35,425 bases of DNA, taken from NCBI GenBank assembly GCA_945965275.1, contig CAMFNB010000012.1, positions 1 through 35,425 on the forward strand. The letters are read 5' to 3'. Shown here one piece after another: positions 10,247 to 14,272 of this stretch. This stretch comes from an uncultured Clostridia bacterium (lineage in GTDB: Bacteria; Bacillota; Clostridia; UBA1212; SIG427). The notes below the pieces were generated by a model, which was not told the DNA's origin, did not search any database, and was given only the letters and a program-made list of their open reading frames with translations. Position 1 is the first letter of the stretch, and every line of letters begins with the position of its first letter. Made by a program: the position numbers and the translations under genes.

Positions 10247-10275
10247 ATTATAACACGGATCAATAATTATTGCAA
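10247..10275 (-). promoter_or_regulatory. rpsT: rpsT promoter
   Basis: On the minus strand TTGCAA (10275-10270), 17-base spacer, TATAAT (10252-10247). The -35 overlaps the last codons of the upstream lipid kinase gene. Transcription would begin near 10240, leaving a leader of about 45 bases ending in AGGAGG. Confidence 0.75.
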
Positions 10276-11186
10276 GGCGGAATAACCAATGTAATGGCTT
10301 CCTTGAGGGTGGAAATGACAACCGGAATAGTGCCTCCGTTTTCGCCGTCATAGTCAACAGGGAAGTTCTCATCTTCAACAGGCTCAGAAGCCCTTGTGAT
10401 TTTTACGGAGGACGACTGAATGTACTTTACATGCGGATCGTCAATGTGGGAACCGACCTGAATTTTTATTCCCAGCGGTAAAATATCAAGCGGAGCAATT
10501 TTTTTAATAATACAGATATCAAGGACTCCGTCGTTTGTTTTTGCATGAGGACAAATGTTGGCAAAGCCGCCGACTGAGCAGGTGTTTGCCACTACAAAAA
10601 GGAACACGTCTTCTTCGAATACCGTTCCGTCATCAAGTTCAAACCTAAGCGGTACGGTGTCGAGCTTAAGCTGAGAAAGGTCCTTTATTCCCGCAATGTA
10701 GTATGCAAGCTTGCCGAATGATGTCTTAAGGTCAGGAGTTACCTTGTGAGCAACCTCTGAGAGAAGACCTCCTGCAGCAACATTAAGGAAATATTTATTG
10801 TTCATTTTACCGATGTCCACTTTTTCGGTGTTCATCTCTTTTATCATGTTTGCAATGTCTTCCGGATAAACGGGAAGCTTGAGTGCGGTTGCAAAGTCAT
10901 TGGTTGTGCCTGCACCGATAATCACGAGGGGAGTCTGGGTTCCGCTTCTTACAAGTCCGTTTACGACCTCGTTTACGGTTCCGTCTCCGCCTACTGCCAT
11001 TACGAAGTCAAACTCACCCTCGGTAATTGCAGCTGCACGGTTTTCCGCGTCGTCTTTTTTCTGTGTATAAAAGATAGTTACTTCTTCTGCAATTCCGCGT
11101 GTGAGAATTCTGTCGATGGAATCAATTGCAATACGCTGAACATTCTGCTTTCCTGAAGAAGGATTAATTATAGCCAAACCTTTCAT
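10260..11186 (-). CDS. Diacylglycerol kinase-family lipid kinase (YegS/BmrU-like)
   Basis: The catalytic domain occupies the N-terminal half: MKGLAIINPSSGKQN, then the nucleotide-binding GGDGTVNEVVNGL and GAGTTNDFATALKLP. The C-terminal beta-sandwich ends in PVDYDGENGG, where the family's substrate-site D-G-E occurs. These cytosolic enzymes phosphorylate diacylglycerol or related lipids, returning them to phospholipid synthesis. I choose the ATG at 11186 since it gives the family N-terminus and follows the upstream stop by 13 bases. Its own ribosome site is poor, so re-initiation after the upstream gene is likely. An in-frame TTG at 11213 lies directly against AAGGAGG, too close to use. The precise lipid substrate is not known. 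Confidence 0.9.
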   Translation of the reverse strand: MKGLAIINPSSGKQNVQRIAIDSIDRILTRGIAEEVTIFYTQKKDDAENRAAAITEGEFDFVMAVGGDGTVNEVVNGLVRSGTQTPLVIIGAGTTNDFATALKLPVYPEDIANMIKEMNTEKVDIGKMNNKYFLNVAAGGLLSEVAHKVTPDLKTSFGKLAYYIAGIKDLSQLKLDTVPLRFELDDGTVFEEDVFLFVVANTCSVGGFANICPHAKTNDGVLDICIIKKIAPLDILPLGIKIQVGSHIDDPHVKYIQSSSVKITRASEPVEDENFPVDYDGENGGTIPVVISTLKEAITLVIPPCNNY

Positions 11187-11199
11187 TTCATTTTTACCG

Positions 11200-12918
11200 T
11201 TAAAAAACAGCAACCTCCTTGTTTTGTGTTAAATCAATCATTTTGAAATAACTCTTCGGGCTGTCCGTATCTCCCGGATAGTAGGCGAAAAGATTGTTTC
11301 CGGTAACATATATTTCTGACGCTCTTAAGCCGCTGACCTTTTCGGGTTTTGCGTTTGCATCTGTCATGTCGAGCTTGTATATACCTGTTTCTTCGCCGAC
11401 AATTCCGTCGAAGAAGAGAGTGTCTCCGTCAAAGAAATATGCTCCGGTTCCGAGATAAAAGCCCTTTAATGCGACTGCCTGACCGTTTTCGTCAATTCTG
11501 CAGAGGCTGATTGTTGAGTTTCCGTTGTAGTCAGTGTTCTTACAGTCAAAATAAATCTCATTATTATAGAAATCAAAGGTGTAAGCCTCACCGAGGTAAA
11601 CGGATTCAACTCCGAGGGAATCGCCGAAATCTGCTACAAAATAGATGCCTTTTCCCGCACCTGCGGAGAAGTAGAGGGTGTTTTTCTCATCGAACTTCAT
11701 AATATATCTGAAGAGGAAAACATTTTGTGACTCGTAATATACGTAGTCTGCTGATTCTTCACTTATGTCAACATAAAGTTTCTCATCTGTTCCGTCGGTC
11801 TTTACAGAAGAAATGCCGTATTTGTCAGAGAAATATATTCTGCCGTCATGATATGTAAGACATGAAACATTTGTTTCCGTGAGAAGCTTCGGCTCAGGTG
11901 AATCAGGAGCAACAGAATATGTCTTTCCGTCAAGATAATTTCTGTAAAAAATCTTTTCTCCGTCGGTAATTACTTCTTTTACCGGGACATCTGAGAATAC
12001 TTCTGAAGTGCCTTTCTTTAAATCATATACATAAAGCTTATTGTCTTTGGCAATATTCTGGAAATAAACGTTGTCGCCGATCTGGGCGATTGCCATCCTG
12101 TTTCCGTACTGCACGCCCGGGTCAAGACCGTCTTCTTTGTCTTTTTTGAATATGTTATACACCAAAAGAACAGCAATATTGAGTAATACGATTGCCGCTA
12201 TTACAATAACAGCAATTTTTATTTTTCTTGAGCGCTTTTTTTCCTGCTCGTGTTTTGCTTCAATGGCATTGGCGGCGTCTTCTTCGGTATAGACAAGGGT
12301 ATCCGCGTCAAGTCCCAGTTCTTCGTGACTGACGGAAGAGAGAGCTGTTTCTTCCTCCTGAATTACCTTGTGCCATACATCGGGTGAAGCCGCTTCAATA
12401 TCCCTCTTTATTTCTTCTTTAATCTGAGCTGATGTTTTCTCTGTGAATTTGTCTCCCAAACGGGCAATTCCGCGCTTAAACTCATTCTTTGCCGAGCCGG
12501 TCTTGTACCAGAGAATTCTTGCGATGTCTCTGCTGCTGAGTGCTGACATGGTAAAAAGCATTACGATGGACGCTCTGTCATTTTTACCGTTGTTTACAAG
12601 CTCCAAAAGAAGAGAAGAAAGGTTATACTGTCGCGGATTGCTTATTTTTCCCGCAAATGCGGGATTGTGTGAAACATTGTTTGCTATGTTTCTGGCCATG
12701 TCCAGAAGCCAGTATTCGGCAGACATGTCCGAATTGAAGAGATAAGCAAGTGCTTTGACTCTTCTGTAAACCTCTGCGGTTACGTCACCTGCAAGGCCGA
12801 TATCTTTTACAATTGATACGGCAAGTGCAAAAACTTCATTATGTGTTTGATCGTAAAGTGCGCGTAAATCAGAGTCATTTCCTCTTGCCACACCTACGGT
12901 TAAGAACTCCAAATCCAA
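11200..12918 (-). CDS. ECF-sigma-like domain joined through one TM helix to an extracytoplasmic repeat domain (DUF5050-like)
   Basis: The TTG start (12918) has AGAGGT 7 bases upstream. Residues 18-84 resemble sigma region 2 (DVTAEVYRRVKALAYLFN, then EYWLLDMARNIANNVS). Residues 105-156 resemble region 4, with the helix-turn-helix ALSSRDIARILWYKTGSAKNEFKRGIARL. An acidic linker with many Glu residues follows, then a basic stretch KKRSRKIK and one hydrophobic helix at about 234-256. Residues 260-572 are predicted outside the membrane and contain repeated short units such as IGDNVYFQNI, DGEKIFYRN, HDGRIYFSD and NNEIYFD, typical of DUF5050/beta-propeller domains. The arrangement looks like a sensor that carries its own transcription factor. 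The sigma regions are divergent, so it may not bind RNA polymerase. It shares a transcript with the lipid kinase. Confidence 0.75.
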   Translation of the reverse strand: MDLEFLTVGVARGNDSDLRALYDQTHNEVFALAVSIVKDIGLAGDVTAEVYRRVKALAYLFNSDMSAEYWLLDMARNIANNVSHNPAFAGKISNPRQYNLSSLLLELVNNGKNDRASIVMLFTMSALSSRDIARILWYKTGSAKNEFKRGIARLGDKFTEKTSAQIKEEIKRDIEAASPDVWHKVIQEEETALSSVSHEELGLDADTLVYTEEDAANAIEAKHEQEKKRSRKIKIAVIVIAAIVLLNIAVLLVYNIFKKDKEDGLDPGVQYGNRMAIAQIGDNVYFQNIAKDNKLYVYDLKKGTSEVFSDVPVKEVITDGEKIFYRNYLDGKTYSVAPDSPEPKLLTETNVSCLTYHDGRIYFSDKYGISSVKTDGTDEKLYVDISEESADYVYYESQNVFLFRYIMKFDEKNTLYFSAGAGKGIYFVADFGDSLGVESVYLGEAYTFDFYNNEIYFDCKNTDYNGNSTISLCRIDENGQAVALKGFYLGTGAYFFDGDTLFFDGIVGEETGIYKLDMTDANAKPEKVSGLRASEIYVTGNNLFAYYPGDTDSPKSYFKMIDLTQNKEVAVF

Positions 12919-12948
12919 GTCAATTACCTCTTAATAAGTAGTTGAATA

Positions 12949-12978
12949 ATTGTACCACGAAATCCGAAATTCTTGCAA
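12949..12978 (-). promoter_or_regulatory. Minus-strand promoter for the sigma-like receptor operon
   Basis: TTGCAA at 12978-12973, 18-base spacer, and TACAAT at 12954-12949, upstream of the TTG start at 12918. The -35 is palindromic and coincides with the -35 of the opposite promoter. Confidence 0.5.
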
Positions 12979-13000
12979 TAATCACAGTTTCTTGTATAAT
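12973..13000 (+). promoter_or_regulatory. Plus-strand promoter for the CNNM/CorC-like gene
   Basis: TTGCAA (12973-12978), 16-base spacer, TATAAT (12995-13000). Transcription would begin near 13007, just ahead of AAGGAG at 13008-13013. This leaves a very short leader and favours a start close to 13025. Confidence 0.65.
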
Positions 13001-13024
13001 ACTTCTTAAGGAGTGTGGTAATCT

Positions 13025-14272
13025 ATTTTACTCAATTTAATTATAATTTTCGTCCTTGTTATTATGTCAGCATATTTTTCTGCCAGCGAGACCGCGTTTT
13101 CGGCACTCAACAGAATTAAAATAAAAAATCTGGCGGCAGACGGAAATAAAAAAGCAAAAAGAGTCATTTATCTGACAGATCGTTATGACAATCTTTTGTC
13201 TACTATTCTTATAGGAAACAATATTGTTAATATCGCCGCATCGGCCCTTGCTACCATAACAGCGAATATAATATCGAACAGCAACTGGGCTGTAACTATA
13301 GGAACTGCAATTTTAACGGTAGTGGTTCTGATTTTCGGCGAGATTATTCCGAAAAGTCTTGCAAAAGAATCGGCAGAGGCATTTGCAATGTTCTCGGCAC
13401 CTTTTATGAGACTCATGATGGTTGTGCTTACTCCGCTGAGTGTTTGCTTCCTCGGCATCAAAAAGCTTATCTCAAAGATGTTCAAGCCAAAGGAAGTGGA
13501 TTCTGAAATCGAAGAGGAGCTTCTCACTTTTGTGGATGAAGCGGAGAGCGATGGCGATCTCGATGAGGAGGAAAGTGACCTTATCAGAAACGCAATCGAG
13601 TTCAACGAAACGGTTGCCGAAGATATTTACACACCGCGTGTGGATATTGTGGCGGTTGAGTTGACAGATCCTCATGAAAAGATAGAGGAAACTTTTTACA
13701 AGAGCGGGTATTCAAGACTTCCGGTATATAATGAAACCCTGGACAACATCGTCGGTGTTTTGAATCAGAAGGATTTTACGAATCCGAACAACGAGAATGC
13801 AAGTCTTGAGAAAATAATGACAAAGCCGGTAATGATTGTACCGTCAATGAAGATTTCGAAACTTCTTTCGACACTTCAGCTTAAAAAGAGCCATCTTGCC
13901 GTAGTCCTTGACGAGTTCGGCGGAACATTAGGAATCGTTACTCTTGAAGACGTGGTTGAAGAACTTGTCGGAGAGATCTGGGATGAGCATGATGAGGTGG
14001 TTGAGGACTTCCAGCCAATGGGCGAAGGAAGATACAGGGTTTTGGGCTCGGCATCCCTTGATGACATGTTCGAACTTTTTGAGATGGAAGTACCTGAGGA
14101 AAATGACAGTAACACGGTTGGCGGCTGGGTTACTGAATTTAAAGAACAGATTCCTGCCGTAGGTGAAGAAATCATAATTGAACCGTTCAATATATTTGTA
14201 ACAAAGAGTGACGAAAAACATGTTGAGGAGGTTATCGTCACATTAATGAAAAAAGAGGAAACTGAAGAATAA
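13025..14272 (+). CDS. CNNM/HlyC-CorC family membrane protein (DUF21 plus CBS pair), probable ATT start
   Basis: This family is linked to Mg2+ or other divalent ion homeostasis. From the first ATG (13064) the protein reads MSAYFSASETAFSALNRIKI and lacks most of the first membrane helix. In-frame codons upstream encode LLNLIIIFVLVI, exactly the hydrophobic lead expected. They begin at an ATT (13025), with AAGGAG 11 bases before it and a stop at 13019. No ATG, GTG or TTG exists there, so an AUU start is the best reading, giving 415 residues. Domains: DUF21 helices (to about 150), CBS pair (about 205-330; YSRLPVYNE, SHLAVVLDEFGGTLGIVTLEDV) and the CorC/HlyC C-terminal domain. The gene is followed 12 bases later by the epimerase. 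Confidence 0.85.
   Translation: MLLNLIIIFVLVIMSAYFSASETAFSALNRIKIKNLAADGNKKAKRVIYLTDRYDNLLSTILIGNNIVNIAASALATITANIISNSNWAVTIGTAILTVVVLIFGEIIPKSLAKESAEAFAMFSAPFMRLMMVVLTPLSVCFLGIKKLISKMFKPKEVDSEIEEELLTFVDEAESDGDLDEEESDLIRNAIEFNETVAEDIYTPRVDIVAVELTDPHEKIEETFYKSGYSRLPVYNETLDNIVGVLNQKDFTNPNNENASLEKIMTKPVMIVPSMKISKLLSTLQLKKSHLAVVLDEFGGTLGIVTLEDVVEELVGEIWDEHDEVVEDFQPMGEGRYRVLGSASLDDMFELFEMEVPEENDSNTVGGWVTEFKEQIPAVGEEIIIEPFNIFVTKSDEKHVEEVIVTLMKKEETEE

Follow-up and report, generated by a model that had tools for sequence, protein, structure and literature searches.

A sigma factor and its inhibitor are normally two proteins. Fusions of the two have nevertheless been described: IutY (ECF243) of Pseudomonas putida holds an ECF sigma factor and a membrane anti-sigma factor in one chain and is activated by Prc/RseP cleavage (PMC8999054), and in ECF48, ECF52 (SCO4117) and ECF53 of Actinobacteria a sigma part, an anti-sigma-like segment, a helix and an outer part are fused (PMC5826349, PMC8999054). 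ECF57 proteins, in which a sigma part is followed by C-terminal propeller-type (WD40-like) repeats, are described as activated by protein interaction, with conserved cysteines joining regions 2 and 4 (PMC8999054). As a two-protein system, Tt-RpoE1 of Thermoanaerobacter tengcongensis is held by the membrane anti-sigma factor Tt-TolB, which has an outer TolB domain, via a 39-residue N-terminus (PMC3397946).

Here we analysed a stretch of 35,425 nucleotides (the window) from an uncultured Clostridia bacterium, in which one gene encodes a protein of related design. According to the original prediction, a single chain combines regions 2 and 4 of an ECF-sigma-like factor with a linker, a membrane-spanning helix and a propeller on the outside, and profiles, a structure model and homologs bear out this domain order (Table 1). 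The open reading frame is a genuine gene: among the 31 genomes of an uncultured Clostridia order from gut and rumen, 30 (the window's own included) encode a full-length homolog, with identities of 23-50%. The prediction had also contrasted the layout with normal ECF systems; given the membrane-tethered fusions cited above, it is not unprecedented.

Table 1. Features of the fused gene and its surroundings, in window coordinates.
Feature	Position	Strand	Details and basis
DagK/YegS-type lipid kinase, following gene in the operon	10260..11213	minus	recurrent partner in the order
Complete fused gene (sigma-like part, anti-sigma segment, TM helix, DUF5050 propeller)	11200..12918	minus	572 aa, TTG start
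Extracytoplasmic beta-propeller (DUF5050), residues 277-572	11203..12090	minus	Pfam, model, profile
Single transmembrane helix, residues 233-253, N-terminus inside	12160..12222	minus	hydrophobicity and charge
Cytoplasmic linker, residues 193-232, acidic, then K/R-rich near the membrane	12223..12342	minus	alignment
Built-in anti-sigma segment, residues ~161-192	12343..12438	minus	hhalign against partner anti-sigmas
ECF sigma region 4, residues 113-160, divergent	12439..12582	minus	profile and alignment
ECF sigma region 2, residues 1-90	12649..12918	minus	profile and fold matches, most conserved domain
Shine-Dalgarno AAGAGG, 8 nt 5' of the TTG start	12927..12932	minus	read from sequence
Putative sigmaA-type promoter TTGCAA-N18-TACAAT	12949..12978	minus	consensus by eye; best-score scan chose another, insignificant site
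CNNM/CorC family membrane protein, divergent neighbour	13064..14272	plus	beside the fused gene in the window and same-family G001 only

The sigma regions had been described as recognisable yet divergent, and the profile searches agree: Pfam sigma models gave no match on the window protein, yet the NCBIfam ECF models SigK (2.3e-8) and SigX (1.3e-7) matched its region 2, as did the Mtb SigC structure 2o7g (2.3e-5). A profile built from 30 homologs aligned residues 2-161 to residues 27-187 of Mtb SigK (E 7e-13) and matched SigW in both regions 2 and 4. As in ECFs, region 2 is followed by region 4 with neither region 1.1 nor region 3. Mean pairwise identity is highest in region 2 (42% vs 30% in the propeller), where A43, E49 and W70 are invariant and N81 is nearly so. 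Matched by their spacing from the tryptophan, W70 (30/30 homologs) and N81 (29/30) correspond to W81 and N92 of SigH, which contact the promoter -10 (PMC6411747), and the length of the specificity loop is unchanged in the fused homologs.

Of the contacts conserved in ECFs (the Q and E/D of region 2.2, a basic region 2.4 and the K/R of the recognition helix), several have changed, although E49, W70 and N81 are kept. In all or nearly all fused members with an intact region 4, Q/H48 of region 2.2 is replaced by V, A or I and E44 by R; K/R146 of the stand-alone ECFs is E in 25/25 fused members, and the basic character of region 2.4 has disappeared, its net charge passing from +3.5 in stand-alone to -0.2 in fused proteins. 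The homologs from genus g3 (L026-L030) go further: they have lost region 4.1 together with the HTH turn but retain the segment, helix, propeller and operon. Anti-sigma factors cover ECF surfaces through a dual interface (PMC7406223), and the changed positions belong to region 2.2 and to the recognition helix of region 4, kinds of surface covered in this way, as expected if the sigma and anti-sigma parts were locked together. Functional ECFs may lack some canonical residues, however, since BldN, a functional ECF, aligns with S at the Q position. The proposed sigma factor is upheld as to its fold, whereas the family-wide changes in RNAP and DNA contacts and the partial loss of region 4 in g3 leave its action as a sigma factor a supposition.

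The original prediction noted that normal ECF systems use a separate anti-sigma factor and sensor. In the window protein no anti-sigma is missing, since its sigma-binding segment directly follows region 4 within the one polypeptide: the stretch between region 4 and the helix is homologous to the N-terminus of separate anti-sigma factors and bears the motif IxxxIxxDxxxxxPDxxxxI, in which P179 does not vary among the fused homologs and D180 hardly does. For all 11 of the nearest stand-alone ECFs (L093-L103), the next gene, a few bases on, encodes such a segment and then a membrane helix, the partner anti-sigmas starting xEIExxLKxAVxxxxPDxLDxIL; in most of the further matches from the phylum the motif is likewise in the next gene. 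Comparison of the fused segment with the partner N-termini by hhalign gave a probability of 94% (E 1.4e-7) and a score of 34.2, against a maximum of 14.4 in 200 column shuffles, and among 53 windows along the fused protein the match was confined to those starting at 131-171. All four partners scanned are RsgI_M (PF23750) anti-sigmas, and three also carry PepSY domains. A PD-motif N-terminal segment ahead of the membrane helix, an RsgI_M-type trait, is present in the window protein; the RsgI_M outer domain is absent from the fused proteins scanned, and no Pfam match to the zinc-finger (ZAS) anti-sigma family was obtained for the window protein. On these comparisons, the protein is a sigma/anti-sigma pair joined as a single polypeptide that has acquired a new ectodomain, and the head-to-tail order of ECF and anti-sigma genes explains how such a fusion could arise. 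At another locus (L106/L130, G712:C35) a single TAG is all that separates a stand-alone ECF from its anti-sigma, which is in the same frame, and the fused-protein profile spans both, an arrangement that may picture how the fusion could have arisen.

The sole hydrophobic helix is preceded by six K/R residues and followed by three, and a single such helix is found in 30/30 homologs. The K/R-rich side is the sigma side, which supports the predicted topology with the sigma part inside and the propeller outside. The outer part, foreseen as a propeller, matches DUF5050 (PF16472) at residues 258-410 (E 2e-10; 40.7 bits vs a Pfam gathering score of 27), and its profile matches designed as well as natural propellers. 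The structure model reached a pLDDT of 86 for the full chain, and of 94 with a pTM of 0.91 for residues 1-195. As anticipated for residues 1-160, sigma structures were recovered: the top Foldseek matches for residues 1-195 are anti-sigma-bound ECFs, with an rmsd of ~5 over both domains (TMt 0.71 for SigW-RsiW, 0.74 for CnrH-CnrY and 0.69 for RpoE-NepR), and RNAP-bound ECFs fit poorly as a whole, with an rmsd of ~27. PhyR sigma-like domains were also among the matches. The sigma domain as modelled fits a closed off state, although AlphaFold might give a closed form for any ECF modelled alone.

We extended the search to 391 genomes from the class, including 16 from the order, and to 399 from the phylum, including the window's own, with slight overlap. 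In the ~770 genomes sampled outside the order, the profile search found no sigma part and DUF5050 in one chain; what it finds there are stand-alone ECFs or separate DUF5050 proteins. Those class DUF5050 proteins that we inspected as candidates for a link to ECFs, through an anti-sigma N-terminus or an adjacent ECF, were stand-alone membrane or secreted proteins. The one order member without the fusion is G003, an 84%-complete MAG that was considered as a 31st carrier and set aside, its profile match being the DUF5050 part of a different protein (L092), which has a C-terminal stretch resembling dockerin repeats. Most genomes of the order gave no match for a stand-alone ECF of the same kind, no relative was found on viral contigs, and the window's own genome has no paralog of the whole protein or of DUF5050. 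The named members of the order are uncultured Clostridia, several of them from the rumen, caecum or rectum of yak, water buffalo and sheep. The sigma domains of the 30 fused proteins group as a single branch in a tree with 25 stand-alone ECFs (support 100/97), so that a single fusion event suffices; by this phylogeny, the fusion arose once.

The lipid kinase, rightly predicted to be a partner, overlaps the fused gene by 14 nt directly downstream of it and is present in 25 of the 29 fetched neighbourhoods as well as in the window, as a rule in this same position. Directly upstream lies a cardiolipin synthase (PLD family) in 16/29 neighbourhoods, and this operon order suggests a link of the fused protein to lipids. 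The CNNM gene, by comparison, was rejected as a functional partner for lack of conservation beyond G001, and its product probably stands outside the system; the predicted envelope or lipid link holds up, its recurrent partners being the lipid kinase and cardiolipin synthase. The CNNM frame is open 5' of its first ATG (13019-13064), where it encodes the hydrophobic residues SILLNLIIIFVLVI and offers no ATG, GTG or TTG. No protease gene is linked to the fused gene in the neighbourhoods read; the genome does hold a site-2 protease homolog, found by an unspecific match.

The proposed overlap between the promoters of the fused and CNNM genes agrees with a reading by eye, in which one palindromic TTGCAA (12973-12978) is the apparent -35 of both, with a candidate -10, TATAAT, at 12995-13000 on the plus strand for the CNNM side. 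In the best-score scan of Table 1, good sigmaA-type promoters were seen at several fused operons and none at others. The stand-alone ECF genes (L093-L103) are preceded by a fixed element, TGCAATAAAA-N12-GC[AG]TTAT (scores 13-17 of 17), likely the autoregulatory promoter of stand-alone ECFs paired with RsgI_M-type anti-sigmas; it often follows an A-tract/T-tract. Upstream of the fused operons this element is absent, with background scores of 9-12 save for three AT-rich matches (13-15) in g3. A pattern search located the strict element in 2/31 genomes of the order, once each: the copy in G005 precedes that genome's own stand-alone ECF, and the second exact copy lies in G011 (L144, C80:3747-3774). 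The ECF-type core AAC-N-CGT is not enriched upstream of the fused operons (1 seen vs 2.8 expected) but neither is it for the stand-alone ECFs, which makes it uninformative in this comparison. Judged from these upstream regions, the ancestral ECF regulon looks to be gone.

We give about an even chance to the reading that the window protein is an autoinhibited, membrane-tethered, one-chain sigma/anti-sigma switch for envelope lipids. An ECF gene paired with an RsgI_M-type anti-sigma would have become fused to the cytoplasmic segment of that anti-sigma, the DUF5050 propeller replacing the usual ectodomain. In the resting state, segment 161-192 would hold the two sigma regions in their closed form at the membrane. 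An envelope or lipid-related state would be sensed by the propeller, and the signal would free the sigma part through proteolysis close to the membrane (site-1 and then site-2 protease, as in IutY) or through a shape change of the still tethered chain, whereupon the freed part would adjust transcription with RNA polymerase at promoters unlike those of the ancestral ECF. The sequence itself shows the domain order, the anti-sigma segment, the single origin and the operon shared with lipid genes; we infer the sensing, gating, release and any sigma activity, and take the closed arrangement from the model. The homology of the segment, the anti-sigma-bound Foldseek matches, the conservation of region 2 with W70, N81 and the loop kept, the single branch, the site-2 protease homolog and the Tt-RpoE1 analogue favour the switch, which is weakened by the changed RNAP and DNA contacts, the loss in g3, the absent stand-alone ECF promoter, the unenriched AAC...CGT and a possible tendency of AlphaFold to the closed form.

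Several of the same observations suit a module in which the sigma and anti-sigma parts are permanently locked, do not start transcription and serve as a rigid cytoplasmic domain relaying the propeller signal to another partner, perhaps the lipid enzymes; we consider this possible, if somewhat doubtful. The changes in region 2.2 and the recognition helix are fixed on a kind of surface covered by anti-sigmas (PMC7406223), g3 keeps the rest of the protein and its operon without part of region 4, the ancestral promoter is gone and the lipid-enzyme partners recur. Against a locked module, region 2 is the most conserved part, W70, N81, E49 and the specificity loop length are kept, and the S of BldN illustrates that canonical residues can be missing from a working ECF. 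Taken further, the pair would be frozen into a non-transcribing core regulator across the order, passing propeller signals to phospholipid metabolism (cardiolipin synthase, diacylglycerol-type kinase), which we think rather unlikely. The PhyR matches, together with strong conservation of a sigma domain altered at its contacts, could also indicate a sigma mimic that, like the sigma-like domain of PhyR, acts as a decoy for another protein, a free anti-sigma for example, but no receiver domain (Pfam) or NepR-like partner was seen, the chain already has its own anti-sigma segment, and most genomes of the order gave no match for a stand-alone ECF of the same kind; a decoy seems quite improbable. 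Nor do we put much weight on an ordinary ECF acting while permanently tethered, in the manner of ToxR/CadC-type membrane regulators and without release. A single chain with one helix would fit, as would the lack of a linked protease gene across the neighbourhoods read; the built-in segment and closed model point instead to an off state, and to our knowledge no sigma factor has been described that works from the membrane, leaving this a very slim prospect.

Whichever reading applies, a gut/rumen Clostridia order appears to retain a one-chain version of what is usually a pair, with its inhibitory segment identified through split relatives. As the segment was identified by homology, autoinhibition is directly testable by deletion, and the loss of region 4 in g3 is a natural test of remaining sigma function. 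Tied to cardiolipin and lipid-kinase genes, the protein may be an envelope-lipid regulator in barely known bacteria. Sigma/anti-sigma fusions such as IutY and ECF52 being already known, the window protein adds a further variety.

Like those fusions, the window protein has a sigma part, an anti-sigma segment, a helix and an outer domain in one chain. It shares with IutY the joining of sigma, anti-sigma and membrane anchor, but IutY serves iron/siderophore cell-surface signalling in a Gram-negative host, with no propeller sensor described (PMC8999054). The layout of ECF48, ECF52 and ECF53 is also similar; their anti-sigma is a zinc finger, whereas the window protein has the PD-motif segment, and the outer domain of ECF52 is carbohydrate-binding rather than a DUF5050 propeller. 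The ECF-RsgI_M pairs from Clostridia and their relatives (L093-L103) have the nearest sigma sequences and an anti-sigma N-terminus homologous to 161-192, but are encoded by two genes, with an RsgI_M outer part (some with PepSY) and their own element TGCAATAAAA-N12-GCRTTA. Tt-RpoE1/Tt-TolB, likened by layout, is a split analogue that differs in being two proteins and autoregulated. ECF57 has a comparable propeller-type C-terminus, but the cysteines that join its regions 2 and 4 have no counterpart in the window protein, whose translation contains no Cys within residues 1-160, and PhyR differs by the receiver domain after its sigma-like domain. What sets the fusion described here apart from the known ones is the type of anti-sigma, the DUF5050 sensor, the host group and the alterations at the sigma contacts.
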